From Bacteroidota bacterium (lineage in GTDB: Bacteria > Bacteroidota > Bacteroidia > AKYH767-A > OLB10), in contig JAHEMF010000020.1 in NCBI GenBank assembly GCA_024643795.1, positions 1-44,940 of the forward strand: a stretch of 44,940 nt of DNA. The letters run 5' to 3'. The notes beneath the pieces were generated by a model. The model had not been told where the DNA came from and did no database searches. It worked only from the letters and a program-made list of their open reading frames with translations. Each line of letters opens with the position of its first letter. Within the stretch, counting starts at the first letter, position 1. The translations under genes were made by a program, and so were the position numbers. Below are positions 9,862 to 22,636 of the stretch, piece after piece.

Positions 9862-10173
9862 ATGTACGCAATTGTAAACATCAACGGTCAACAGTTTAAA
9901 GTAACTGAAAAACAGTCGCTTTATGTACACCGACTTGAGGCAGGTGAAGGAGATAAAGTAGAGTTTGATCAGGTAATGCTGGTAGACAACAATGGAACCT
10001 GTAAAGTTGGTACTCCAGTTTTAGATGGAGCCAAAGTAACCGCAACTGTTAAGTCCCATCTTAAAGACGATAAGGTTATCGTTTTCAAGAAAAAGAGAAG
10101 AAAAGGATATCAAAAATCTAACGGACATCGTCAGGCTCTTACCCAAATCACAATTGACGGGATAAAAGGCTGA
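9862..10173 (+). CDS. rplU: 50S ribosomal protein L21
   Basis: Structural protein of the large ribosomal subunit that binds 23S rRNA. MYAIVNINGQQFKV at the N-terminus and the basic segment VIVFKKKRRKGYQKSNGHRQ are the family signatures. The 103-residue length is standard. It is followed after 22 bases by rpmA in the usual bacterial order. Confidence 0.98.
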   Translation: MYAIVNINGQQFKVTEKQSLYVHRLEAGEGDKVEFDQVMLVDNNGTCKVGTPVLDGAKVTATVKSHLKDDKVIVFKKKRRKGYQKSNGHRQALTQITIDGIKG

Positions 10174-10195
10174 TCACCCCTAAAAAAATCACAAC

Positions 10196-10462
10196 ATGGC
10201 ACATAAGAAAGGTGTTGGTAGTTCCAAGAACGGAAGAGAATCACACAGTAAAAGACTAGGAGTAAAGATATTTGGCGGGCAACATGCTGTTGCCGGTAAC
10301 ATTATTGTTCGCCAGAGAGGCACAAAGCATTTTCCATCCGACGGTGTTGGAATAGGTAAAGACCACACACTTTTTGCTTTACGTGATGGTGTTGTTGAAT
10401 TCCGCAAGCGTGCCAATGATAAATCATATGTATCTATTGTAGATGCACAGGATAAAAACTAA
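10196..10462 (+). CDS. rpmA: 50S ribosomal protein L27
   Basis: Large-subunit protein whose N-terminal arm reaches towards the peptidyl transferase centre. [20 protein letters not shown] and [22 protein letters not shown] are diagnostic. Length 88. There is no Firmicutes-type N-terminal cleavage extension. A perfect hairpin terminator closes the two-gene operon. Confidence 0.98.
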
Positions 10463-10478
10463 TTCACAGTTCATTTAT

Positions 10479-10509
10479 AAAAAAGTCCCGGTTACACCGG
10501 GACTTTTTT
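10479..10509. terminator. Bidirectional terminator between rpmA and the DUF547 gene
   Basis: Perfect 14-base arms AAAAAAGTCCCGGT/ACCGGGACTTTTTT around a TAC loop. A-run on one side and T-run on the other let it work for both converging genes; it overlaps the last two bases of the DUF547 gene. Confidence 0.92.
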
Positions 10510-11278
10510 ATTTCCTGTCATTGAGCTTCCAATCGTAAGTGTAATAGCCAACCTGAAAGCTTTTGGGAAGAACGTGTTCCCGGTATTTGTTGATATAACT
10601 GACAGCTGTTTGTTCTGATCCACCAAAGTCATTCTGGTACCACTTAAATATTTCTGACAGCCCAATCTTTTTATCTGTCTGATACACTCTGATGAATTTG
10701 TCATCATTCAGAACAAGTGAGGTTTGTGCTTCAATTTGAGTTTGCAGAGATTCCGGCACATATGCCCGAGAACTCAAAGGAGGACACCCCATGGCAGCGC
10801 AAACAAGTACAAAGTGAATTCGCTGATCTTTGTATACACTCAAAAGCTTAACCTTTTCTATATCATCCAGAGACAGCTTCTCCCCTCTCACAACAAAATG
10901 TTTATTACTGAAAAAGCCTTCCACTTTTAATGGAGATGAAACTGCCGGATAGTTGTCGATCACAGACTTGATGACCAATATATTATATGTATTGATCAAA
11001 AAAGCCATCTCAGATTGCTTGTCAACAGTCGCAGTCAAATTAGCAATCATACTTACCAACCTATCAAGGCTTGCCTGGTCTTTTTTAACAGCTGTGTACT
11101 CAACCAATCCTGAACTCACATACTTGTTCAGAAATTTATCTGCATCAGTAAAAAATTCATCATATGAATTTTGAGGGTAAATTGCCCCATGCTCATCTGA
11201 ACCGGCTATACAGATTGAATTTGTAGCAGGTAATGATAATCCAACGGTAATTATCACTAGAAGGAATTTGATTTTCAT
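10508..11278 (-). CDS. DUF547-family exported protein
   Basis: Function unknown. A signal peptide covers roughly residues 1-25 (hydrophobic IKFLLVIITVGLSLPA). The DUF547 core is seen in MAFLINTYNILVIKSVID, FVLVCAAMGCPPLSSRAY with its conserved cysteines, and LSEIFKWYQNDF. Length 256. It is divergent from the FAD oxidoreductase with only 61 bases between the starts, which hold an inverted repeat. From memory, DUF547 genes are often found near ArsS-type genes; that association is recalled, not shown here. Confidence 0.82.
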   Translation of the reverse strand: MKIKFLLVIITVGLSLPATNSICIAGSDEHGAIYPQNSYDEFFTDADKFLNKYVSSGLVEYTAVKKDQASLDRLVSMIANLTATVDKQSEMAFLINTYNILVIKSVIDNYPAVSSPLKVEGFFSNKHFVVRGEKLSLDDIEKVKLLSVYKDQRIHFVLVCAAMGCPPLSSRAYVPESLQTQIEAQTSLVLNDDKFIRVYQTDKKIGLSEIFKWYQNDFGGSEQTAVSYINKYREHVLPKSFQVGYYTYDWKLNDRK

Positions 11279-11295
11279 AAATTTACCTTTTTATC

Positions 11296-11313
11296 AACTT
11301 GTAAAACCAAGTT
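11296..11313. promoter_or_regulatory. Inverted repeat AACTTG-N6-CAAGTT in a divergent promoter region
   Basis: Perfect six-base arms separated by TAAAAC lie between the divergent starts of the DUF547 gene and the six-gene operon. The position suits an operator shared by both transcripts. No adjacent regulator gene is present. Confidence 0.4.
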
Positions 11314-11339
11314 ATTAAATTATGGTTTAATATTACTGT

Positions 11340-12629
11340 ATGTCAGGAATTGTGATCATAGGTAACGGAATATCAGGAATTTCAGCTGCAATAAAGAGCA
11401 GGGAGCTCACTGACCAACAGATAACTGTAATATCTTCTGAAAGTAAATATTTCTTTTCAAGAACTGCTCTCATGTATGTTTTTATGGGCCAAATGAAATT
11501 TGAACACATAAAACCATATGAAGATTCATTCTGGAAACAACAAAATATTGATTTGGTTTTTGACAAAGTAAATAAAATTGATCCTGAACACAGTACAATT
11601 TTAACCGATAGAGGAGAAAAGATCACATATGATCAGCTTGTGATAGCCACAGGTTCATCTCCCCGCAAGGGTAAATGGAAAGGAGAGACACTGAAAGGCA
11701 TATTCAACCTATATACCATGAGTGATGTAAATAAGCTGCATGAAGCTTCGCATTCGTGTGATAAAATGGTTGTTGTAGGTGGAGGTTTAATAGGGATTGA
11801 AGTATGTGAAATGTTTGCCTCTCGTGGTATTGAAGTACATTTCCTGGTCAGGGAACCATTTTTCATGTCCGGCACACTTACAACTCCGGAATGCGAGGTG
11901 CTTGAAAGGCATATCAGGAATAAAGGAATATCAATTCATAAAAATGAAACTGTAATATCCTTTCAGGGTGATCAAAAAGGAAATCTGAAATCATTACAAA
12001 CAGAATCAGGAAATTCATTTGAAACCAGCTTGGCAGTGGTGTCAATAGGTGTAAATCCAAATATTAGTTTCCTTGATGGGTCAGGAATTGATATGAATCA
12101 TGGGATCCTGGTCAATGAATATCTCGAAACCAATATAAGAGGTATATATAGCGCCGGTGATTGTACTGAGTTAAGATCTCCAGTAAATGGCCGTCGCGCC
12201 ATTGAACCTGTGTGGTATACTGGTAAACTCATGGGTAACATTGTAGCATTGAACATAGCAGGCACTCCAACCATATACAACCCCGGAGTATGGTACAATT
12301 CTGCAAAATTCTTTGACGTGGAATATCAGACCTATGGATTTGTACCTCCGATCAACGATATTAACCATGATTATTTTTATTGGGAAGATCCCCAAAGGCC
12401 CAGATCATTCAATGTTTATTATGATAATTCCAGCGAAGTAGTTAAAGGATTTAACTTTCTAGGCATCAGAGGAGATCACAAAAAATGTGAAATTGCAATA
12501 CGAGAAAAATACACACTGAGTGAGGTGATGGAATCATTGGATTCATTTCTTTTTGATCCGGAGTTTTCAAAAAGCATACCTGAAAAGATCTTAAAGTTTT
12601 ATAATAACCTTAAACTTATAAATAGCTAA
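11340..12629 (+). CDS. FAD/NAD(P)-dependent oxidoreductase
   Basis: Flavoprotein of the two-dinucleotide-fold group (ferredoxin/rubredoxin reductase, NADH oxidase, NirB N-terminal like). The FAD fold starts at residue 2 (IVIIGNGISGISAA). YDQLVIATGS is the second FAD contact. KMVVVGGGLIGIEVCE is the NAD(P)-binding fold. IYSAGDCTEL is the C-terminal FAD motif. There is no CxxC redox disulfide near the flavin and no fused ferredoxin. Length 429. It heads a six-gene operon with the next gene 2 bases downstream. A likely role is to pass electrons from NAD(P)H to the membrane polyferredoxin encoded two genes later. Confidence 0.85.
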   Translation: MSGIVIIGNGISGISAAIKSRELTDQQITVISSESKYFFSRTALMYVFMGQMKFEHIKPYEDSFWKQQNIDLVFDKVNKIDPEHSTILTDRGEKITYDQLVIATGSSPRKGKWKGETLKGIFNLYTMSDVNKLHEASHSCDKMVVVGGGLIGIEVCEMFASRGIEVHFLVREPFFMSGTLTTPECEVLERHIRNKGISIHKNETVISFQGDQKGNLKSLQTESGNSFETSLAVVSIGVNPNISFLDGSGIDMNHGILVNEYLETNIRGIYSAGDCTELRSPVNGRRAIEPVWYTGKLMGNIVALNIAGTPTIYNPGVWYNSAKFFDVEYQTYGFVPPINDINHDYFYWEDPQRPRSFNVYYDNSSEVVKGFNFLGIRGDHKKCEIAIREKYTLSEVMESLDSFLFDPEFSKSIPEKILKFYNNLKLINS

Positions 12630-12631
12630 CT

Positions 12632-13477
12632 ATGAATAGAACGAGGATACTGATTAAGCTTACAATTCTACTATTATTTTACAGTTCCACTTCTTTTGGA
12701 GGTGGTTGGACCCGTCCCAAAGGTGGGGTTTTCGCTAAAGTGGATATATATTCCATCTCAGCTAAAAGCTTGTTTGATGATGATGGCAACACCTTTGAAA
12801 TACCAAAATTTGATTTCTTATCGTCGAACTTTTATTGTGAGGTTGGAATAACAGATAGGTTAACAGGTATAGCTTATTTTCCATTTTATGTAAGTTCGAA
12901 ATCAGCTCCATTTACCGGTAATGAAGAACTTAACATCAGCAATACTGGAGACCTGGATATAGGGGCACGATATCAACTTCTGTCAAATAATGGTTTTGTA
13001 TTATCCACATCTCTAACACTTGGCCTACCAACAGGTAGTGCAGATGAAAATGAACTTCTTTGGACCGGTGACGGTGAATTCAATCAGATCATTAAACTTG
13101 AAGCGGGTTTACCCATACCGGGTAATATTTATGCAGCAGGTGGTTTGGGATATAATTTCAGGTCTCAGGGTTTTTCAGACGAGTTTGTTTTTGATATTGA
13201 GATAGGTATCGGTTTTTTTGAAAACCGACTTTTTGCAACCTTAAAATCGAATAGCCGGATTCCGATGGAGAATGGAGATGAAGATGTTACCGGTGGATAT
13301 GGGATGTTTAGTAATAACACCGGGTATATTTCATTTGGGCCGGAAGTATCATACTTCTTTAAGAACGGGCTGGGTATAAGTGCCAATACATTCGGAGCAT
13401 TTTATGGACGTAATTTACTGGCTGCCCCCTCCTATTCTGCCGGAATAGTTTACAGATTTGATCCACCAAAAAATTGA
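12632..13477 (+). CDS. Predicted outer-membrane beta-barrel protein
   Basis: No firm family recognised. A signal peptide (residues 1-22, LTILLLFYSSTSFGG) is followed by alternating amphipathic strands such as DLDIGARYQLLS, FVLSTSLTLGLPTG and GYISFGPEVSYFF, with Gly and aromatic residues as in porin-like or transporter-like barrels. No OmpA or TonB-plug domain is visible. Length 281. Its stop codon overlaps the start of the next gene, so it is translationally coupled. It could export or house the product of the operon. Confidence 0.65.
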   Translation: MNRTRILIKLTILLLFYSSTSFGGGWTRPKGGVFAKVDIYSISAKSLFDDDGNTFEIPKFDFLSSNFYCEVGITDRLTGIAYFPFYVSSKSAPFTGNEELNISNTGDLDIGARYQLLSNNGFVLSTSLTLGLPTGSADENELLWTGDGEFNQIIKLEAGLPIPGNIYAAGGLGYNFRSQGFSDEFVFDIEIGIGFFENRLFATLKSNSRIPMENGDEDVTGGYGMFSNNTGYISFGPEVSYFFKNGLGISANTFGAFYGRNLLAAPSYSAGIVYRFDPPKN

Positions 13478-14781
13478 GTGTCAATTCCAATATAAAGCAG
13501 CTATACAATTATGTATCTCTCATAGGGATACTGGTTGTGTTGTGTCCATTATTCATTTCTATAGCTATATCAACTCAATTATTAGTTTTCGGAATTGGTA
13601 TAATCTTTCTCAGTGTTGTTCTTCAAAGCCTGGATGATTTCAAAACCAGTGCCACGGGAGTTCATTATGAAAATACATTCTTTAAAGGCATAACAAACCG
13701 AAAATTAAGCGCCTGGTTACTTGGAATTTCACTGACCACTTTCTACATATTTGTTTATTGGTTCCCCGATCTTCTTGAACCACTCGTCAAAGCTGTAGAT
13801 CCTTTCAGTTATTACCTGAGAGGTATACCTGCAGATCAATGGTTCCTTTATGGAACATTTTATACATCAGCGGTTTTGATAATGGGCACAAAAGCATTGA
13901 TCAAATACAGGTCAGTTGCTTATCATGTTCGGAGAACCTTATCCGTAATGTTTTTTCAATTTATATTGGCATGGCTTATCCCGGCATTCCTGATCAAACT
14001 TAACCAGCCTGAATTTTATTTTAGTTATTTCTGGCCGTTGAAATATGATTATCTGTTTCCCGGAACAATCAACTACCTCACAAGTCAACCTGGTGCTCTT
14101 GGAACATTCATGATCTTTTGGGGAGCCTCCCTTACTTTCGTTGGTACTCCTGTACTTACTTATTTCTTTGGTAAAAGATGGTATTGTTCCTGGGTCTGCG
14201 GCTGTGGAGGACTTGCAGAAACAGCGGGTGATTCGTTTAGGCATCTTTCATCTTCTTCCACTTCAAGTTGGAAATTAGAACGTTTCATTATCTATCCTAC
14301 TTTAGCATTCATAGTTATTGTCACAGCCACTCTCTGGGTCAACTCTATAAGTAACGGCAAAATTCTGGGAGATTTCTCTAATGGCGCAAGCAGTACATAT
14401 GGCTTTTTGATAGGTTCGCTATTTTCAGGAGTTATCGGAGTAGGATTTTATCCACTGCTGGGCACAAGAGTATGGTGCCGCTTTGGTTGTCCTATGGCTG
14501 CAATTTTGGGGATTCAGCAAAAGTATTTCTCCCGCTTCAGGATAACCACTAACGGTTCTCAATGTATCTCCTGTGGAAATTGTACCACCTATTGCGAAAT
14601 GGGAATAGATGTTAAATCATATGCTCAACAAGGACAGAATATTGTTAGAGCATCTTGTGTAGGATGCGGAATATGTGCTACTGTTTGTCCAAGAGGTGTC
14701 CTCAAATTAGAGAACAAATCAGATCATGATCGATTAAACAATCCCTTACAACCTACCTCAGCCGGATGGAAAATGAATTGA
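13474..14781 (+). CDS. NapH/CcoG-like membrane 4Fe-4S ferredoxin
   Basis: Integral membrane iron-sulfur protein expected to move electrons across or along the inner membrane. About six helices span residues 15-325. Two Cys pairs at the membrane face are WYCSWVCGC (C238, C242, C244) and WCRFGCP (C335, C339), as in NapH, NosR and CcoG proteins. Two classical 4Fe-4S motifs follow: C364/C367/C370/C374 and C395/C398/C401/C405. The start is TTG, overlapping the TGA of the upstream gene; no in-frame ATG lies near. No nitrate, nitrous oxide or cytochrome oxidase genes are nearby, so the partner is probably within this operon. Confidence 0.85.
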   Translation: MSVNSNIKQLYNYVSLIGILVVLCPLFISIAISTQLLVFGIGIIFLSVVLQSLDDFKTSATGVHYENTFFKGITNRKLSAWLLGISLTTFYIFVYWFPDLLEPLVKAVDPFSYYLRGIPADQWFLYGTFYTSAVLIMGTKALIKYRSVAYHVRRTLSVMFFQFILAWLIPAFLIKLNQPEFYFSYFWPLKYDYLFPGTINYLTSQPGALGTFMIFWGASLTFVGTPVLTYFFGKRWYCSWVCGCGGLAETAGDSFRHLSSSSTSSWKLERFIIYPTLAFIVIVTATLWVNSISNGKILGDFSNGASSTYGFLIGSLFSGVIGVGFYPLLGTRVWCRFGCPMAAILGIQQKYFSRFRITTNGSQCISCGNCTTYCEMGIDVKSYAQQGQNIVRASCVGCGICATVCPRGVLKLENKSDHDRLNNPLQPTSAGWKMN

Positions 14782-15476
14782 TTGTTCGTGATTGTATTAC
14801 TGACCTGGTCATACCTGCGTTGAATGAAGAAGGTGCAATCGGGAAGGTAGTATTATCTGTACCCAAGGCACTGGTGAGGAATATAATAGTAGTTGATAAT
14901 GGTTCAACAGATGATACAGTTTCCGTTGCCGGCAAACAGGGTGCTATTGTGCTTTCAGAATCTGAACGTGGCTATGGAGCTGCATGTCTTAGAGGCATAG
15001 AGTACTCAATTTCACAACCACAACCTCCGGATGTGATAGCATTCATGGATGGTGATTTTTCAGATCACGCAGAAGAGATCGATACTTTAATAGACCCGAT
15101 AAAGCATAACATTGCAGATCTTGTTTTAGGCTCAAGGGTAATGGGGAAAAGAGAAAAAGGCTCACTTACACCCCAACAGGTTGTTGGTAATAAGATCGCA
15201 ACTTCATTGTTAAAATATTTTTATGATCAGTCGTACACTGACCTGGGACCTTTTAGGGCAATAAGGACCGAATCGCTTCTTCTACTACAAATGAAAGATC
15301 GCAATTACGGATGGACAGTTGAGATGCAGATCAAAGCTGCAAAAAACAAGCTGAGGATTCTTGAAGTTCCTGTAAGTTATAGAAACAGGATAGGTTATTC
15401 GAAGGTATCCGGAACTATCAAAGGCAGTGTGATGGCAGGATATAAAATCATCCATACTCTTTTAAAACATTCCTGA
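14766..15476 (+). CDS. GT2 glycosyltransferase, polyprenyl-phosphate type (DPM1-like)
   Basis: Likely transfers a sugar from a nucleotide donor to polyprenyl phosphate at the cytoplasmic face. The GT-A fold shows VIPALNEEGAIGKVV, VDNGSTDDT and the metal-binding motif FMDGDFSDHAEEI. WTVEMQIKAAK and the Arg-rich VPVSYRNRIGYSKVSGT segment are typical of DPM1-like enzymes. Length 236, without C-terminal membrane helices. It overlaps the preceding gene by 16 bases. The sugar is unknown. It differs from the TIGR04283 type often named beside ArsS. Confidence 0.85.
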   Translation: MENELIVRDCITDLVIPALNEEGAIGKVVLSVPKALVRNIIVVDNGSTDDTVSVAGKQGAIVLSESERGYGAACLRGIEYSISQPQPPDVIAFMDGDFSDHAEEIDTLIDPIKHNIADLVLGSRVMGKREKGSLTPQQVVGNKIATSLLKYFYDQSYTDLGPFRAIRTESLLLLQMKDRNYGWTVEMQIKAAKNKLRILEVPVSYRNRIGYSKVSGTIKGSVMAGYKIIHTLLKHS

Positions 15477-15479
15477 AAT

Positions 15480-16958
15480 TTGAGTTATTTGATTCTATAC
15501 CTACTGGTCTTTACATATTTCAGTGCTATACTGTTCATATTCATGTTCAGCTTGATTCAATTTTACCTGGCTATTATTTCTCACAATACATCCCACAACA
15601 ATCCATCAGGAACAAAAGATGAAAATGAACTTCCTTTTGTTACCATCCAGCTTCCGGTATATAATGAAAGATATGTAGTTGACAGGTTGATCAGAGCAAC
15701 TGCAGAAATAAAATATCCCAAAGATAAACTTGAGATACAGATACTGGACGACTCTACTGATGAAACCTCCAGCATCATCAATGATACAATCAAGGAATTA
15801 TCACTAAAGGGAATTAATATTGAAGTTGTGCAAAGAAGTAACAGGGAAGGCTATAAAGCCGGTGCTTTAGCAAACGGTCTAGCCCGATGTAAAGGTGATT
15901 TTATTGGAATTTTTGATGCAGACTTTATACCACCGTTAGATTTTTTATTAAAGACCATACCTCACTTCAATGACCCGAATACCGGCATGGTACAAGTACG
16001 TTGGGGGCATTTGAACAAGAATTATTCTTTTCTGACCAAATTGCAGGCATTTGGACTTGACGCACATTTCATGGTAGAACAACCTGGCAGGAATCAATCG
16101 GGCGCATTCATTAATTTCAATGGAACAGCCGGCATCTGGAGGAAAACTGCGATCATTGATTCTGGAGGATGGAGTGCAGAGACATTAACTGAAGATCTTG
16201 ATCTAAGCTACAGAGCTCAACTAAAAGGTTGGAAGTTCAAATATCTTGAGGATACAGTGGCTCCTGCAGAACTGCCTGCGGAAATAATGGGACTTCGATC
16301 ACAGCAGTTTCGGTGGAACAAGGGAGCAGCACAGAATATGTTGAAAAACCTGCCGTCTGTTTTACGATCTGATCTTCCTATGATGAAAAAAATGCACGCA
16401 TTCTTCCATCTAAACAACAGTGCCATTTTTGTAGCAATTATGATTGCATTCATCAGCAGCATTCCTTTACTTATTTGGAAATCATCTATTTCAAATGGCG
16501 ATACCATCTTTCACTGGATGGCAATTTCTCTTCTAGCCTATGTATTTCTAGGATCATACTTTTATATTCCTTATAAATTATCAAATCCTGATGCCAGATT
16601 CAGACTTTTGAAATTCATTTATTGGTTTCCATTATTTCTTTGTATTTCAATGGGGTTAGCATTTCAGAATACTATGGCAGTGCTTGAAGGGTGGTTCGGA
16701 AAAAACACAGCATTTATCAGGACACCGAAATACAACCTTACGTCTTCATCAAAACATACTAAACTTAAGAATTACCAGAATGCACCTCACTTGCGTTACA
16801 CTACTGGGGAGCTGTTTGTTGTTTTGTACAGCATAGCCGGGATTGCTGCAGGTATTCACCTCAAGGACACAGGCCTAATACCATTTCACTTCATGATGGC
16901 AGCAGGATCTTTAGTAGTTATGGGATACACATTGATCCATTCAAGAAACTTTAAATGA
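15480..16958 (+). CDS. CESA-like processive GT2 glycosyltransferase
   Basis: Membrane glycosyltransferase related to cellulose and glucomannan synthases. An N-terminal helix is followed by the catalytic domain with VTIQLPVYNE, ILDDSTDET, FDADFIPP, TEDLDLSYRAQ and the QQFRWNKG (QxxRW) acceptor motif. Further helices fill residues 305-490. The full D,D,D,QxxRW set is intact, so the enzyme should be active. There is no PilZ domain and no BcsB neighbour, which argues against regulated cellulose. The start is TTG three bases after the previous stop. Its product may be a beta-linked glycan or a glycolipid headgroup. Confidence 0.88.
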   Translation: MSYLILYLLVFTYFSAILFIFMFSLIQFYLAIISHNTSHNNPSGTKDENELPFVTIQLPVYNERYVVDRLIRATAEIKYPKDKLEIQILDDSTDETSSIINDTIKELSLKGINIEVVQRSNREGYKAGALANGLARCKGDFIGIFDADFIPPLDFLLKTIPHFNDPNTGMVQVRWGHLNKNYSFLTKLQAFGLDAHFMVEQPGRNQSGAFINFNGTAGIWRKTAIIDSGGWSAETLTEDLDLSYRAQLKGWKFKYLEDTVAPAELPAEIMGLRSQQFRWNKGAAQNMLKNLPSVLRSDLPMMKKMHAFFHLNNSAIFVAIMIAFISSIPLLIWKSSISNGDTIFHWMAISLLAYVFLGSYFYIPYKLSNPDARFRLLKFIYWFPLFLCISMGLAFQNTMAVLEGWFGKNTAFIRTPKYNLTSSSKHTKLKNYQNAPHLRYTTGELFVVLYSIAGIAAGIHLKDTGLIPFHFMMAAGSLVVMGYTLIHSRNFK

Positions 16959-18307
16959 AATTTTCCAGATTTATAACACTTTCATTCTTGTTTATTCTGG
17001 TGATTGTATATCTGACTTTATACACAGATCGTACAGAATTTTACAATTTGCTGTTAGGTTTTGTATCACTTACAATTTTAGCCATTCTAATTGGATCCGA
17101 ACAACATCAAAAAGCAAGCAGAATATTACTTCTCGGATTAATAGCAAGAATAGTTGTGTTGGTAGGTTTCCCTACTCTTTCTGATGATATCTACCGATTT
17201 ATTTGGGATGGCAAATTACTTCATTCTGGTATTAATCCATTTTTATTTACACCAAAAGAATTAATTACATCAGGAATTGCCACCCATGTTCATGGATTAA
17301 TCTCATTGTATCCAAATTTAAACTCGAAAGAATTTTATAGCATATACCCGCCTTTGGTTCAAACAATAAATCTGATAGGTGTAATTGTAGGTGGTGAAAA
17401 TATCAATTTGGTGGCCTTTGTAATTAAGTCATTTATCTTCATGGCCGACATCGGTAGTATGTTTTTGATATACAAATTAATAAATGGCACTTCATCAAAC
17501 AGCAATATTTACCTGACATTCTATGCGCTAAACCCATTAGTGATATTTGAAATAAGTGGCAATGCCCATCATGAAGGGATTTATCTATTCTTTATACTGC
17601 TTGGAATTACATTATTTCGTAACAAGAAATATTTATTTGCAGGATCAAGTGTAGGATTAGCAGTAGCTACTAAAATCCTTCCTCTCATATTCCTTCCAGT
17701 GTTCATAGCTGCGGCACCTAATAATTATACAAGGTTTAATTTTGCCACAGGTTTTTCAACTGCTGCCATTATCTTTTTATTACCGCTGGTTAACAATGAA
17801 ATATTAAATGCGATTTTATCCAGTGGTGAACTTTATTACAATTATTTTGCTTTCAATTCACCTGTCTACCAATTGACAGAGTTTATATCACAGTTCTATT
17901 CTAAACCTTGGGAGCTGACCTCTTTCACAGGCTATTTCAGCCTGCTGTCGGTGCCGGGAATTCTTGTGATAAGCTATTACGTACTAAATCGACGCTTATC
18001 AATTGCTTCCGGCTTATTCTGGAGTTTGTTTATATATCTTGCTCTTTCAAGGATGATACACCCCTGGTATCTGGTTCCACTGGCAGGCCTTGGAATTATT
18101 TCAGGTAATTTAACCGGTACAGTATGGCTATTATTATCCTTCGTAACCTACTCCACATATTTCGCAACACCATATCATGAAAATAAATTATGGTTAATTA
18201 CAGAATATACTTTGTTGATCTTATTTATTATTGTGAAATACGCTTTTAGTTCAGATCAGCGGATAGCTTCATTAAGAAAATTTATCAATGGTAAAGCTGT
18301 TTTGTAA
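16955..18307 (+). CDS. GT-C polyprenol-dependent glycosyltransferase (GT87/mannosyltransferase-like)
   Basis: Polytopic protein with about eleven helices and the acidic first-loop motif TLSDDIYRFIWDGKLL followed by GINPF. This pattern is typical of GT-C enzymes that use lipid-phosphate sugars on the outer face of the membrane. The DPM1-like protein two genes upstream could provide its donor. Length 450. It overlaps the CESA-like gene by 4 bases. It is the last gene of the operon, and its 3' end overlaps the opposing DUF2461 gene by 52 bases. Donor and acceptor are unknown. Confidence 0.8.
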   Translation: MKFSRFITLSFLFILVIVYLTLYTDRTEFYNLLLGFVSLTILAILIGSEQHQKASRILLLGLIARIVVLVGFPTLSDDIYRFIWDGKLLHSGINPFLFTPKELITSGIATHVHGLISLYPNLNSKEFYSIYPPLVQTINLIGVIVGGENINLVAFVIKSFIFMADIGSMFLIYKLINGTSSNSNIYLTFYALNPLVIFEISGNAHHEGIYLFFILLGITLFRNKKYLFAGSSVGLAVATKILPLIFLPVFIAAAPNNYTRFNFATGFSTAAIIFLLPLVNNEILNAILSSGELYYNYFAFNSPVYQLTEFISQFYSKPWELTSFTGYFSLLSVPGILVISYYVLNRRLSIASGLFWSLFIYLALSRMIHPWYLVPLAGLGIISGNLTGTVWLLLSFVTYSTYFATPYHENKLWLITEYTLLILFIIVKYAFSSDQRIASLRKFINGKAVL

Positions 18308-18912
18308 GAATTTTCGCATTCTTTTATAAGACCTTTACTTGTCAATATTGATTGAGTGACATTCCGGGTAACCATAACACTTGTTAGTCGCAAATACTCA
18401 ATAGCAGGATTATCTGTATCATATCCTTTCGGGGATGTTTTTAACCTTTCATCTACAAGTTCACCAAATGTGTCCTCAAACTTTTTTCCTTTAATTATTT
18501 TTAAAAAATCTTTGTAGTTATAATCAATCTCTTGTCTGATATTTTTCAAAATTGGCCCTTGAGGCATCCAACAACCTGCAGCGAGGAATGAAGAAGTGGC
18601 ATCTATCTGAATATAAAATCCCGCAAGGGGCGACTTCCTCCCTCCTTCTGAGACCACAATACCAAAATGAGATTTATAAGGATCTTTATTAGGAGAAAAC
18701 CGTACATCTCGAAAAATTCTGAACAGACATTCCTTGTATGTAAGAGTCGACAGGTGTTTATTGTGAATTTTCAGAGTGTTGATAAGGTCTCCTGCGAACT
18801 CCTGAATATTCTCCACAGATTCACGATACCTGCTACGGTTCTTATCGAACCAAGCTCTGTCATTATTTTTCTTGAGATCCTTTAGAAATAATAGTGTTTC
18901 TTTTTGTATCAT
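18256..18912 (-). CDS. DUF2461-family protein
   Basis: Function unknown. The family pattern is clear: LLFLKDLKKNNDRAWFDKNRSRY at the start, FRIFRDVRFSPNKDPYKSHFG in the middle and AGFYIQIDATSSFLAAGCWMP after it. Length 218 is standard for DUF2461/TIGR02453. It is the last gene of the four-gene minus-strand operon, 46 bases after the ArsS-like gene. Its coding end lies inside the end of the opposing GT-C gene. Confidence 0.88.
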   Translation of the reverse strand: MIQKETLLFLKDLKKNNDRAWFDKNRSRYRESVENIQEFAGDLINTLKIHNKHLSTLTYKECLFRIFRDVRFSPNKDPYKSHFGIVVSEGGRKSPLAGFYIQIDATSSFLAAGCWMPQGPILKNIRQEIDYNYKDFLKIIKGKKFEDTFGELVDERLKTSPKGYDTDNPAIEYLRLTSVMVTRNVTQSILTSKGLIKECENSYKTALPLINFLNEAIR

Positions 18913-18958
18913 GATAAAGGGTTATACTAAAGATTTTAAACATTTATCAATGTAAATA

Positions 18959-19999
18959 TCAAACAACTGAACCACCACAACTTGATCCCGTACCAGCCGT
19001 ACAGCCATAACAATGTTGATTGGTTCTGATATTCCTTCCTATCAGTGCTGTGTGGTCGTATTCTGAAATATGTGAGATCGATTCCAGATCAACTCCCAAC
19101 TCGAGCATTTGATTGAAATCACAATCATACAAACTCCCATCCCAACCTACAGATATCATTTCGCGACACATAACATTTTGAGCAGCTACCGGATTGAAAG
19201 AGCTGGATAGTTTCTCCATATAGTTTTGATAATTTCCTGAAGTTATGAGATAATTTAAAAATCGGCTTATCGGTAAATTGGTAATGCAATAAAGGTTATT
19301 AAAATTAATACTGAACCTGTCAAATAGTTCCTTTTTAAACTGTTGCTCTAAAGCTAACTGATCTCCTGGTAAAAATGCACCTGAAGGATTATACACCAGG
19401 TTTAATCTAAGGTCTGAACCTTCCATACCATAACCCACAGCGTTCAACATTTGCAAGGCATGTATTGAAGACTCGAATACCCCATCACCCCTCTGACTAT
19501 CTGTTCTGTTTTTAGTAAAATAAGGCATGGAAGCTATAACTTCCACATTATTTTCAGCATAGAATTCAGGCAGGTCACTGAATCGTTTATGGGAATTGAT
19601 AATGGTAAGGTTACACCGAACCAAAATATTCACTTTAAGCTTTTTGAGTTCACTCACGAACCACCTGAAGTTAGGGTTCAATTCAGGTGCTCCACCGGTA
19701 ATATCTACCATGGAAAATTTATTTTTTCTGACCACATCAAGGCATTGCTGAAATGTTTCAGTGGTCATAGATTCCTTTCTGTCAGGAGCTGCATCGACGT
19801 GACAATGATGGCATGACTGATTACAAACCTTACCAACATTTATCTGCAAAACATCAAGAGACCTTGGTTTTAGTGGTGAAAGTCCGGAGGCTGTCAGATC
19901 CTGATCAAACACATTTAACCCATTAATATGGGTTTCTAAATACTTTAATTGAACCTGTGGATCAAATAATTTATTTCCGGTATGTTTTAGTGAAGGCAA
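18959..19999 (-). CDS. arsS: ArsS-type radical SAM protein (arsenosugar biosynthesis)
   Basis: Radical SAM enzyme of the ArsS group, thought to join a 5'-deoxyadenosyl group from SAM to dimethylated arsenic, giving the precursor of arsenosugars. The 4Fe-4S cysteines are C59, C63 and C66 in VCNQSCHHCHVDAAPDR. ITGGAPELNPNFRWFV is the GGE-like SAM motif. NLVYNPSGAFLP and WDGSLYDCDFNQML are family segments. The C-terminus HCYGCTAGTGSSCGG has Cys where some members have selenocysteine. The gene has a normal TGA stop and no recoding is needed. Length 346. Family assignment is strong; the arsenic role is taken from the family. Confidence 0.88.
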   Translation of the reverse strand: MPSLKHTGNKLFDPQVQLKYLETHINGLNVFDQDLTASGLSPLKPRSLDVLQINVGKVCNQSCHHCHVDAAPDRKESMTTETFQQCLDVVRKNKFSMVDITGGAPELNPNFRWFVSELKKLKVNILVRCNLTIINSHKRFSDLPEFYAENNVEVIASMPYFTKNRTDSQRGDGVFESSIHALQMLNAVGYGMEGSDLRLNLVYNPSGAFLPGDQLALEQQFKKELFDRFSINFNNLYCITNLPISRFLNYLITSGNYQNYMEKLSSSFNPVAAQNVMCREMISVGWDGSLYDCDFNQMLELGVDLESISHISEYDHTALIGRNIRTNQHCYGCTAGTGSSCGGSVV

Positions 20000-20017
20000 G
20001 TGATTAATGTTATAAGA

Positions 20018-20353
20018 TCACATTGATACTTCTTTTACCTTGTTCATCATTTGAACTGAATGTACCAATGATGAACCACCCCGAATGGCGACTGCCACAT
20101 GCACAGCTTCCATCATTTGTTCTTCAGAACAGCCTCTTTCCAAAGTATCAGTAGTATACGCATCTATGCAGTACGGACATTGAACTGTGTGAGCCACTGC
20201 TAGTGCGATCAGAGATTTTTCACGGGCTGTCAAAGCTCCATCTTTGAAAACTTCTCCATAGTAATCGAAGAATTTTTTGGCAAGTTCAGGTCCGAATTCT
20301 GAAACATCTCCAAATTTTTTCAGATCAGCCGGATCATAATAAGTTTTTTCCAT
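20018..20353 (-). CDS. Arsenosugar-associated peroxidase-like protein (AhpD/CMD fold)
   Basis: Small protein of the carboxymuconolactone decarboxylase/AhpD fold, 111 residues. The redox motif is C59-P-Y-C62 in AVAHTVQCPYCIDAYT, preceded by Glu45. The His that follows CxxC in AhpD is replaced by Tyr66 or neighbouring residues. Start MEKTYYDPADLKKFGDVSEF and end AIRGGSSLVHSVQMMNK match the family named as ArsS-associated peroxidase-like. It lies 18 bases upstream of arsS. It may reduce an arsenic species or protect the radical enzyme; that is inferred from pairing. Confidence 0.85.
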   Translation of the reverse strand: MEKTYYDPADLKKFGDVSEFGPELAKKFFDYYGEVFKDGALTAREKSLIALAVAHTVQCPYCIDAYTTDTLERGCSEEQMMEAVHVAVAIRGGSSLVHSVQMMNKVKEVSM

Positions 20354-20393
20354 TTATCGCTCAGTTTAAGATTTAGAACATGAATACTCGAAA

Positions 20394-21224
20394 TTAGTTT
20401 AAGGATAATTTTGGAATAACAGCAACAAAAATTCTTGTAAGATCCTTTTCTGCCTCCCCTGCAACTCTTAATATATCACTTATATCAACAGGATGTAGAT
20501 CATCAGGATCACATTCATCTGTTAACACAGAAATTGCAGCGCACGGTAATTTCATATGATTACATACTATCACTTCAGGTACTGTAGACATTCCAACAAC
20601 ATCAGCTCCAATTCTTCCTAAAAACCTATATTCTGCACGGGTCTCAAGGTTAGGTCCCGACACCACAGCGTATACACCTTTATGAACCGTGACCCCTTCC
20701 TTAATTGCTGCATCGGCAAACAAATTATTCATTTGAGGATCATATGGACGGCTCATATCAGGAAACCGGGGGCCATTTCTGTCATCATTCTCTCCTGTAA
20801 GTGGATTTGATGGGAGCAGGTTTATATGATCATCAATGATCATCAATTGTCCTTTTTTATACTTTTTGTTAATCGCCCCAGCTGCATTCGATAATAGCAA
20901 AGCTTTAATTCCCAAATGCTTCATGACTCTGACCGGAAATGTGATTTGCTTCATGGAATAGCCTTCATAGTGATGAAATCTTCCCTGTAAAGCGATAACC
21001 TTAATCCCACAAATGGTTCCAAAAACCAATTTCCCGGCGTGTGATTCTACTGTTGATAATGGAAATCCTGGGATCAGACCATAATCCAGCTCACATTCAA
21101 CAGTTATTTCCTTAGCCAGACCTGATAAACCAGTGCCTAAAACAATTCCTAATTGAGGCTGAGAAACCCCTTTCTCAATCAGAAAATCAGCAGTCCTCCG
21201 TGCATCCTCATAGCTGTAATCCAT
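20394..21224 (-). CDS. Purine nucleoside phosphorylase (trimeric, PNP-I/MTAP family)
   Basis: Splits purine nucleosides with phosphate to give a base and a sugar 1-phosphate. LGTGLSGLA (phosphate loop), GRFHHYEGYS, LLSNAAGAIN, GPNLETRAEYR (base-binding Glu) and MSTVPEVIV mark the family. Length 276. In VLTDECDPDDL, Asp236 stands where human PNP has Asn243. From the literature as I remember it, N243D in human PNP favours adenosine, and MTAP also has Asp there. It leads the operon of the peroxidase-like, arsS and DUF2461 genes. It may serve general purine salvage, or it may remove adenine from the ArsS product. Confidence 0.9.
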   Translation of the reverse strand: MDYSYEDARRTADFLIEKGVSQPQLGIVLGTGLSGLAKEITVECELDYGLIPGFPLSTVESHAGKLVFGTICGIKVIALQGRFHHYEGYSMKQITFPVRVMKHLGIKALLLSNAAGAINKKYKKGQLMIIDDHINLLPSNPLTGENDDRNGPRFPDMSRPYDPQMNNLFADAAIKEGVTVHKGVYAVVSGPNLETRAEYRFLGRIGADVVGMSTVPEVIVCNHMKLPCAAISVLTDECDPDDLHPVDISDILRVAGEAEKDLTRIFVAVIPKLSLN

Positions 21225-21364: not shown

Positions 21365-22636
21365 ATGCTGCAAGTCAATATAATACGTGAGGATCCCGAT
21401 AAGGTGATTGAAAGACTTTCTGTAAAGAATTTTGATGCTAAAGAAATTATAGGCCAAATCATTGAACTTGATACCGGAAGAAGGGCAACCCAAACCGAGT
21501 TGGATCAACTTTTGTCTCATCAGAATACAATTGCAAAACAAGTTGGTGAGTTATTTAAATCAGGAAAGCAAGCGGAAGCTAATGATTTGAAGAATAAAAG
21601 TATTGCTTTAAAAGATGAGGTGAAAAAACTCCACGATCTTTTACACAAATACGAACATGATCTGCATCAACAAATGGTATTGTTGCCAAACTGCCCAAGT
21701 GAAAAGGTTCCATCAGGTAAATCTGCTGCAGACAATGAAGTCATTTACTCAATCGATAAATTGCCTGAGCTAAGTTCTGAAGCACAACCTCACTGGGAGC
21801 TGGCATCAAAATATGATATCATAGATTTCGAATTAGGAGTAAAGATCTCCGGTGCCGGTTTTCCTGTTTACAAAGGAAAAGGAGCACGCTTGCAGAGAGC
21901 ATTGATCTCTTGGTTTTTGGATCGGGCCGGAGAAAGTGGTTACACAGAGGTTCAACCACCTATTCTTATCAATGAAGCGTCTGGGTTTGGCACAGGACAA
22001 TTACCTGACAAAGAAGGGCAGATGTACCTGGTTGGCCTTGATAATCTGTACCTGATACCTACAGCTGAAGTACCTATTACGAATATATTCCGAGATGAGA
22101 TAATAGACGCTGCCACTTTACCTTTAAAACTCACAGGGTATACTCCGTGTTTCAGAAGAGAAGCCGGTTCATATGGTAAAGATGTCAGAGGACTCAACAG
22201 ACTCCATCAATTTGACAAAGTAGAGATCGTTCAAATTTCACATCCTGACAGATCATATGATATACTGGAGGAAATGAAAGATTATGTCGTCAGCTTATTG
22301 AAAGATCTCAATCTTCCTTTCAGAGTGCTTAAACTTTGTGGTGGTGATATGAGTTTTGCCTCTGCCCTAACCTATGACATGGAAGTTTGGTCAGCAGCTC
22401 AGGAGAAATGGCTCGAAGTGAGCAGCGTATCAAACTTCGAGACTTTTCAATCTAACCGACTTAAACTAAGGTACAGGGAACACAATGAAAAGCCCAAACT
22501 TGCACATACACTAAACGGCAGCGCTCTTGCGTTACCAAGGATAGTTGCTGCCATACTGGAGAATAACCAGACAAGTTCAGGAATTCAGATTCCTGAGGTG
22601 CTTGTTCCATACACGCAATTTGAAAAGATCGACTAA
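21365..22636 (+). CDS. serS: Seryl-tRNA synthetase
   Basis: Charges tRNA-Ser with serine. The N-terminal 110 residues form the long coiled-coil tRNA-binding arm. The class II core follows: TEVQPPILINEAS (motif 1 region), CFRREAGSYGKDVRGLNRLHQ (motif 2, split here from the following Phe-Asp-Lys-Val-Glu) and NGSALALPRIVAAILENNQ (motif 3). Length 423 is typical. Its stop shares bases with the start of the next gene (TAATG), so the TPR protein is translationally coupled. Confidence 0.97.
   Translation: MLQVNIIREDPDKVIERLSVKNFDAKEIIGQIIELDTGRRATQTELDQLLSHQNTIAKQVGELFKSGKQAEANDLKNKSIALKDEVKKLHDLLHKYEHDLHQQMVLLPNCPSEKVPSGKSAADNEVIYSIDKLPELSSEAQPHWELASKYDIIDFELGVKISGAGFPVYKGKGARLQRALISWFLDRAGESGYTEVQPPILINEASGFGTGQLPDKEGQMYLVGLDNLYLIPTAEVPITNIFRDEIIDAATLPLKLTGYTPCFRREAGSYGKDVRGLNRLHQFDKVEIVQISHPDRSYDILEEMKDYVVSLLKDLNLPFRVLKLCGGDMSFASALTYDMEVWSAAQEKWLEVSSVSNFETFQSNRLKLRYREHNEKPKLAHTLNGSALALPRIVAAILENNQTSSGIQIPEVLVPYTQFEKID

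Follow-up and report, generated by a model that had tools for sequence, protein, structure and literature searches.

An ArsS locus and a conserved membrane redox–glycosyltransferase module arranged as two convergent operons in a Bacteroidota genome

The window, that is, the whole stretch of 44,940 nucleotides analysed here, contains an ArsS gene set and a six-gene membrane set. The conserved part of the membrane set comprises an FAD protein and a NapH-like protein (the FAD-NapH pair) together with a DPM1-like GT2, a CESA-like GT2 and a GT-C glycosyltransferase; in the host's class, this module follows the distribution of ArsS, TIGR04282 and AsSugarArsM and is often found beside them. A functional linkage between ArsS and the membrane module is quite likely. 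Whether the region represents an ArsS (arsenosugar) locus combined with a conserved membrane module of the same pathway, yielding an arsenosugar-bearing product, is in our judgement an evenly balanced question, although this explanation was favoured over the alternatives weighed below.

Organisation of the locus and gene families

The window holds all eleven open reading frames described for this region, and their coordinates, strands and profile scores bore out the gene list and family calls of a preliminary description of this DNA. The six-gene operon (11340–18307, + strand) begins with an FAD/NAD(P)H oxidoreductase of the ferredoxin-reductase type (11340–12629; Pyr_redox_2, 187 bits), followed by an outer-membrane-barrel-like protein (12632–13477; Phenol_MetA_deg, 34.5 bits), a NapH-like membrane polyferredoxin with Fer4 domains (13474–14781), a DPM1/AglJ-like GT2 (14766–15476), a CESA/PgaC-like membrane GT2 (15480–16958) and a GT-C glycosyltransferase (16955–18307), with intergenic gaps of 2, −4, −16, 3 and −4 bp. 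A gene for a DUF547 protein (10508–11278, − strand; PF04784, 77 bits) diverges from this operon at a spacing of 61 bp from the FAD gene. The second set (18256–21224, − strand) consists of a purine nucleoside phosphorylase (PNP; 20394–21224; PRK08202, 339 bits, cut-off 218), an ArsS-associated peroxidase-like CMD protein (20018–20353), the radical SAM enzyme ArsS (18959–19999) and a DUF2461 protein (18256–18912; PF09365, 223 bits), separated in order along the sequence by 46, 18 and 40 bp, and the convergent ends of the GT-C and DUF2461 genes overlap by 52 bp. Based on these gaps and strands, the region is two convergent operons lying tail to tail. The preliminary description likewise called them convergent, and its wording that one runs into the other is to be taken in this tail-to-tail sense. 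A promoter scan was uninformative, with 34 sites against 39.1 in shuffled sequences, and terminator-like sites numbered 15 against 6.3 in shuffles.

On the ArsS side, ArsS exceeded the curated TIGR04167 cut-off (446 vs. 300 bits) and its translation carries the CX3CX2C radical SAM motif as CNQSCHHC. The adjoining CMD protein also exceeded its cut-off (TIGR04169, 188 vs. 120 bits). Gene families were clustered across 120 fetched loci plus the window, 38 of the loci being ArsS-anchored; the CMD cluster was found in 23 of these 38, the DUF547 cluster in 15 and the PNP cluster in 10, and DUF547 also recurs beside FAD-NapH. The DUF2461 protein was alone in its cluster, the barrel cluster included only two other loci, at a different position, and neither protein was found in 80 named FAD-NapH loci at the score threshold used. 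Because they do not recur across loci, both were rejected as pathway parts and are probably passengers. The genome encodes two PNPs, the other copy (contig C65, 556–1347) being 50% identical to that in the window. Window-like PNPs, defined as 56% identity or more and counted by eye, occurred in 17 of 39 ArsS-positive and 7 of 41 ArsS-negative genomes. The PNPs of ArsS-anchored loci share a T-D-E-C-D-P stretch or something close to it, but the T-D is also present there in the three solved PNPs that were compared. An ArsS-specific, adenosine-type role for the PNP was thus rejected; its link to ArsS is weak and the enrichment modest, and therefore the PNP is not used as a pillar of the explanation.

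The FAD protein scored well under the cut-off for CoA-disulfide reductase (TIGR03385, 163 vs. 579 bits) and does not have the single catalytic cysteine of CoA-disulfide reductase and NADH oxidase, its T42 aligning with the cysteine of 3cgb; a profile of the protein finds ferredoxin reductases. The FAD gene adjoined NapH in 46 of 48 NapH-cluster loci of the host's class. The NapH-like protein was itself below the TIGR02163 cut-off (61 vs. 213 bits). Across 40 sequences, its invariant cysteines comprise C238/C242/C244, C335/C339 and two CxxCxxCxxxC sets, and the iron-sulfur segments fall in the more positive, cytoplasm-like loops. Its structural model has eight long helices (mean pLDDT 75) with the iron-sulfur part at low confidence, and a search of the PDB with this model returned no match at E ≤ 0.001.

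Among the glycosyltransferases, the DPM1/AglJ-like GT2 (PF00535, 70 bits; best NCBIfam match AglJ, 130 bits, cut-off 325) is predicted from its sequence to be a polyprenyl-phosphate-sugar synthase. The CESA-like GT2 (PF13641, 80 bits) has the QxxRW motif as QQFRW and lies under the curated cut-offs of PgaC (125 vs. 422 bits) and CelA (123 vs. 699 bits). The GT-C protein matched GT87 at 22 bits, under the Pfam gathering score of 25, and was assigned by Foldseek. The best match of its model, and the only one at E ≤ 0.001, was GPI mannosyltransferase I (9wno; E = 7.2e-5, probability 1.00); PimE, ALG9 and ALG3 followed with probability 1.00 at E above 0.001. As modelled, the protein has the fold of Dol-P-Man-dependent enzymes, and its use of a polyprenyl-phosphate sugar is putative.

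Distribution and linkage of the module and ArsS

Phyletic profiles were compared across the same 247 genomes of the host's class, 39 with and 208 without ArsS. ArsS was counted only over its cut-off (39 of the 179 genomes with any match), TIGR04282 likewise (57 of 63), and NapH only at E below 1e-50 (49 of 83); one genome with NapH in broken pieces (1e-27) was counted as lacking it. The NapH-like gene was present in 34/39 ArsS-positive and 15/208 ArsS-negative genomes, GT-C in 36/39 and 16/208, the CESA-like gene in 36/39 and 20/208, and TIGR04282 in 39/39 and 18/208. TIGR04283 and AsSugarArsM were each found in 18 of the 39 ArsS-positive genomes; NapH, GT-C and CESA thus cover these genomes more completely than either family and nearly as completely as TIGR04282. 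The association of NapH with ArsS survived collapse to genera (30/32 vs. 8/104) and families (20/21 vs. 6/47). These counts agree with the earlier suggestion that the membrane set is linked with ArsS; the contrary outcome that had been named in advance, a set common in genomes without arsS and never tracking with it, was not what the host's class displayed. Of the ten families expected to recur together, the membrane core did so, DUF2461 and the barrel did not, and the PNP was only modestly enriched. Under the cut-offs applied, ArsS, NapH, GT-C, CESA and TIGR04282 were all missing from the five other sampled genomes of the host's own family.

Physical linkage and gene order pointed in the same direction as the profiles. 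ArsS and the module (any of NapH, CESA and GT-C) were at most 20 kb apart in 9 of the 39 ArsS genomes; of the 34 genomes with both NapH and ArsS, 8 had the two within that distance, against 0.38 expected. AsSugarArsM adjoins or sits among module genes in four loci. Beyond the class, 12 of the 80 named FAD-NapH loci contain ArsS themselves; of the genomes behind the 68 others, 49 were searched and 34 have ArsS, a figure for which these phyla offer no matched background. Hymenobacter, Ignavibacteria/Kapaibacteria and one Methylacidiphilum MAG show the pairing again. Four Hymenobacter loci follow the same convergent plan as the window, four loci carry CMD-ArsS-TIGR04282-FAD-NapH in line, and three have the order TIGR04282-CMD-ArsS-DPM. 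In Hymenobacter isolates, ArsS lies within the locus, and in Pontibacter it is elsewhere in the genome. In Myxococcota, NapH did not track ArsS (16/30 ArsS-positive vs. 12/37 ArsS-negative genomes, p = 0.13; with a stricter NapH cut-off, 13/30 vs. 10/37, p = 0.20). Of the 51 genomes with three or more of the four core markers, 14 lack ArsS; this and the Myxococcota result speak against a strictly arsenic-related role.

Proposed pathway and competing explanations

In the favoured explanation, ArsS would attach dimethylated arsenic to the 5'-deoxyadenosyl group of SAM, and the nucleoside so formed could be converted to an activated arsenoribose by an enzyme of the PNP type together with the TIGR04282 protein. 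The DPM1-like enzyme would load a hexose onto polyprenyl phosphate, the GT-C enzyme would move the polyprenyl-bound hexose onward at the outer face, and the CESA-like enzyme might make the acceptor. The FAD protein could pass electrons from NAD(P)H to the cytoplasm-facing iron-sulfur centres of the NapH-like protein, from which they would serve a membrane-tied reductive step. The outcome would be a lipid- or glycan-linked product bearing an arsenosugar when ArsS is present; we regard this as plausible, while rating it slightly below an even chance. The full route that had been envisaged is not supported for this genome: AsSugarArsM (NF038099, over its cut-off in 18 of the 247 genomes) was not found at E 1e-60, nor TIGR04283 at E 1e-40, the window GT2 scoring 29 against 182 bits. 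With AsSugarArsM as the ArsM search model, no source of dimethylated arsenic was found in the genome. The TIGR04282/TIGR04283 pair had been described as missing, which is correct for TIGR04283; TIGR04282 is present on contig C65 (3395–3943; 185 bits, cut-off 134).

The strongest competitor, possible but on balance unlikely, is that the module's product is an ordinary glycolipid or glycan of the envelope for which arsenic is not needed, and that ArsS, CMD and ArsM form an optional branch, which either adds an arsenosugar to the envelope product or uses the module's TIGR04282 step. If the branch is optional, ArsS is nested in the module and not the reverse. TIGR04282 accompanies ArsS without exception, whereas 14 genomes carry three or more core genes and no ArsS, which fits this explanation. 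On a NapH tree of the class (47 rows; one fragment of under 350 residues left out), the ArsS label needs 8 changes against 12.8 with shuffled labels; the ArsS-less carriers are therefore not one separate subfamily, and their scatter is what an optional branch would give. In one ArsS-less family, moreover, TIGR04282 lies beside a neutral-ceramidase-like gene (a Pfam call on one cluster member) in 7 of 8 fetched TIGR04282 loci. Module-only genomes are nevertheless a minority, and chance alone would place ArsS within 20 kb of the module in far fewer genomes.

A narrower proposal, in which FAD-NapH donates electrons to ArsS and the glycosyltransferases stand apart, appears improbable. The ferredoxin-reductase affinity of an FAD protein without the CoA-disulfide reductase cysteine, the cytoplasm-like position of the iron-sulfur segments and the four in-line loci are in its favour; against it, 15 of 49 NapH-positive genomes have no ArsS, 5 of 39 ArsS-positive genomes have no NapH, and NapH is closer in distribution to GT-C and CESA (Jaccard 0.84 and 0.81) than to ArsS (0.63). 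Because the pair occurs without ArsS, supplying ArsS, one of the two roles first envisaged for the polyferredoxin, is not its only job. That lifestyle or lineage alone brings together genes that do not work together is very improbable and was disfavoured: the sampled genomes are related and the Myxococcota association was not significant, but the association withstood the genus and family collapse, same-contig linkage exceeded expectation (8 vs. 0.38) and the gene order is repeated in several groups.

More broadly, we tentatively propose, as a possible but on balance unlikely reading, that FAD-NapH, DPM1-CESA-GT-C, TIGR04282 and rhodanese/DUF547 constitute one unnamed multi-phylum membrane pathway that builds a lipid-linked glycan, with ArsS feeding in arsenoribose as an optional residue. 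If so, this would be the first set of bacterial genes for an envelope glycolipid that bears arsenic; carriers without ArsS would make the arsenic-free version. To our knowledge, the genes that act downstream of ArsS in forming arsenosugars and arsenolipids are not settled. The module that follows ArsS offers concrete candidates for the missing membrane steps, in named Hymenobacter and Pontibacter isolates, and its repeated pairing with ArsS in relatives suggests that the arsenic-sugar pathway has a membrane half not recognised so far. The name of TIGR04282 refers to arsenosugars, but the family is part of a wider set that can also occur without ArsS.

Relation to known systems

The NCBIfam arsenosugar set (TIGR04167, TIGR04169, TIGR04282, TIGR04283 and NF038099) is represented in the window by ArsS and CMD, each above its cut-off, and by TIGR04282 elsewhere in the genome; in contrast to that set, TIGR04283 and NF038099 are absent, and the six tandem membrane and redox genes match none of its members over cut-off. 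The ArsM-ArsS pathway of Synechocystis shares a radical SAM enzyme of the same name, and we take the two ArsS proteins to be of the same family. The passages on this pathway in two papers that cite the Synechocystis work cover the ArsM and ArsS steps only and mention neither FAD-NapH nor DPM-CESA-GT-C (PMC8552651, PMC12159101). Among the texts searched, none joined arsenosugar, radical SAM and glycosyltransferase. The NapH-like protein resembles NapH/MauN and related membrane polyferredoxins in its transmembrane helices, cysteine motifs and two 4Fe-4S sites, and differs from them in its sub-threshold score and in having an NAD(P)H-FAD protein as partner. Similarly, a DPM1/AglJ-like GT2 and a GT-C enzyme in one operon recall the Dol-P-Man pathway, in which DPM1 works with GT-C enzymes of the PIG-M, ALG3 and PimE type, whereas in the window a CESA-like GT2 is placed between the two.

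Gene layout and protein features of the island

All eleven genes that the preliminary description placed in the island (window 10508-21224) were recovered at their positions, and their family assignments were upheld by profile matches. The six plus-strand genes (FAD oxidoreductase, barrel, NapH-like polyferredoxin, DPM1-like GT2, CESA-like GT2 and GT-C) were separated by gaps of 2, -4, -16, 3 and -4 bp, and the four minus-strand genes of the ArsS set (PNP, CMD, the radical SAM protein ArsS and DUF2461) by 46, 18 and 40 bp. The sets lie tail to tail on opposite strands and overlap by 52 bp; thus, they form two convergent operons rather than a single run. The island is flanked by short ORFs resembling ribosomal proteins L21 and L27 (window 9862-10462) and by a seryl-tRNA-synthetase-like gene (window 21365-22636).

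The profile of the FAD protein resembled those of ferredoxin reductases and CoA-disulfide reductases (CoADR). It carries threonine at the position of the CoADR cysteine, a position that is not invariant in its family. In the NapH-like protein, thirteen cysteines were invariant across 40 sequences, and the structure model contained eight long helices. Positive charge is higher in the loops that share a side with the iron-sulfur segments. Together these features make electron exchange at the cytoplasmic face likely under the predicted topology. A fold search with GT-C returned a Dol-P-Man-dependent GPI mannosyltransferase as the best match, followed by ALG9, PimE and ALG3, in agreement with its DPM1-like partner.

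Association of the module with ArsS

One set of 247 genomes of the window's class was searched with the window NapH-like protein, GT-C, CESA-like, TIGR04167 (ArsS), NF038099 (AsSugarArsM), TIGR04283 and TIGR04282. ArsS exceeded the cut-off in 39 of the 247. NapH was found in 34/39 ArsS-positive versus 15/208 ArsS-negative genomes, GT-C in 36/39 versus 16/208, CESA-like in 36/39 versus 20/208 and TIGR04282 in 39/39 versus 18/208; the corresponding values were 18/39 versus 1/208 for TIGR04283 and 18/39 versus 0/208 for AsSugarArsM. NapH was likewise present in 30/32 ArsS-positive versus 8/104 ArsS-negative genera, and in 20/21 versus 6/47 families. NapH, CESA and GT-C tracked one another best (Jaccard 0.81 to 0.84). 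The proposed tie between the six-gene set and ArsS is therefore borne out by these three profiles. The linkage is real and its completeness in this class was unexpected; any mechanism beyond it we infer. The window PNP was only modestly tied to ArsS, with window-like PNPs in 17 of the 39 ArsS-positive genomes.

Of the 34 genomes having both genes, 8 had NapH no more than 20 kb from ArsS (0.38 expected), and 9 of the 39 ArsS genomes had any of NapH, CESA or GT-C within that distance. When 120 fetched loci were clustered together with the window (80 loci in the first round), three building blocks emerged: FAD-NapH (FAD in 46 of 48 NapH-cluster loci), DPM-CESA-GT-C, and CMD-ArsS with TIGR04282, DUF547, ArsM, PNP or TIGR04283. 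DUF2461 and the barrel, two of the ten families listed previously, did not recur. An AsSugarArsM gene adjoined or lay among module genes in four loci (L061, L064, L067 and L098).

Other genes were also observed nearby. A MORN-repeat protein, whose cluster spanned 17 loci, recurred near the module, as did a long DUF547 protein in 8 loci, for example among L118, L129, L130, L064 and L067. An Omp85-like cluster gene occurred near ArsS in L077, L082, L090 and L094 (family tested on L077).

Carriers without ArsS and distribution in other phyla

ArsS was absent from 14 of the 51 genomes having at least three of NapH, CESA, GT-C and TIGR04282. On the NapH tree (47 rows), the ArsS label needed 8 changes, 6 of them forced by supported branches, versus 12.8 for shuffled labels, indicating that ArsS was gained or lost repeatedly on one NapH background, with some clustering. 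The ArsS-less carriers and this repeated gain or loss favour a module with a broader role, in which arsenic is introduced by ArsS.

In seven loci of one ArsS-less family (L141, L142, L143, L150, L151, L152 and L154), TIGR04282 adjoined a neutral/alkaline-ceramidase-like gene (Pfam scan on the relative L148), and a link to sphingolipids is possible. A genome of the same family that retains TIGR04282 carried a decaying NapH-like copy, a remnant with several internal stops (G185:C9:2321-3384).

Named genomes were also scanned with the NapH alignment, and the best 80 loci were kept; many are from Hymenobacter, and the list spans Bacteroidota, Chlorobiota, Calditrichaceae, Dadabacteria, Gemmatimonadota, Planctomycetota, Myxococcota and others. 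Among these 80, FAD was recognised adjacent to NapH in 76 and ArsS lay inside the locus in 12. The window's convergent plan was repeated in four Hymenobacter loci (L221, L230, L231 and L240); four further loci of the list (L224, L234, L236 and L242) had the in-line order CMD-ArsS-TIGR04282-FAD-NapH, and in L257 FAD-NapH stood opposite ArsS-DPM and a weak ArsM match. From the 68 loci without local ArsS, 49 genomes were searched and 34 had ArsS over the cut-off elsewhere, most phyla having no matched background. In 67 Myxococcota genomes, taken as such a background, NapH did not track ArsS significantly (16/30 ArsS-positive versus 12/37 ArsS-negative, p 0.13; p 0.20 and 0.16 at stricter cut-offs). 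Taken with the class counts and the recurring loci, this result indicates that within the window's class the tie to ArsS is strong, and that elsewhere it recurs without being universal. More divergent Myxococcota NapH-like genes (L346-L360, 46-54% identity) had a recognised FAD gene alongside in 13 of 15 loci.

The window's own genome and known arsenosugar systems

In the window's own genome, TIGR04282 was located on contig C65 adjoining a rhodanese gene, with another PNP copy (G000:C65:556-1347, locus L155; 50% identical to the window PNP) two genes upstream of this pair. Profile searches of this genome found neither TIGR04283 nor NF038099. In five other genomes of its family, ArsS, NapH, GT-C, CESA and TIGR04282 were all absent at the cut-offs used; the set is thus present or absent together in this small sample. 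The rhodanese protein recurred with TIGR04282 or the module (L063, L110, L111, L155 and L266-L268), sometimes also with a Crp/Fnr regulator, and that of L063 exceeded the NF045521 cut-off.

A literature search covering few subscription papers returned none joining arsenosugars with a radical SAM protein and glycosyltransferases, and novelty is judged within that scope. Two published sources list TIGR04167 among the radical SAM domain selenoprotein families (PMC13188914, PMC9312934), and a third uses TIGR04282 as a soil marker (PMC11237643). Excerpts on oxo-arsenosugar synthesis describe a radical SAM enzyme that adenosylates arsenic, with ArsS and ArsM acting together in Synechocystis (PMC12159101, PMC8552651). 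Judged by the 247-genome counts, the module follows ArsS more completely, but less exclusively, than the two recognised arsenosugar families TIGR04283 and AsSugarArsM.
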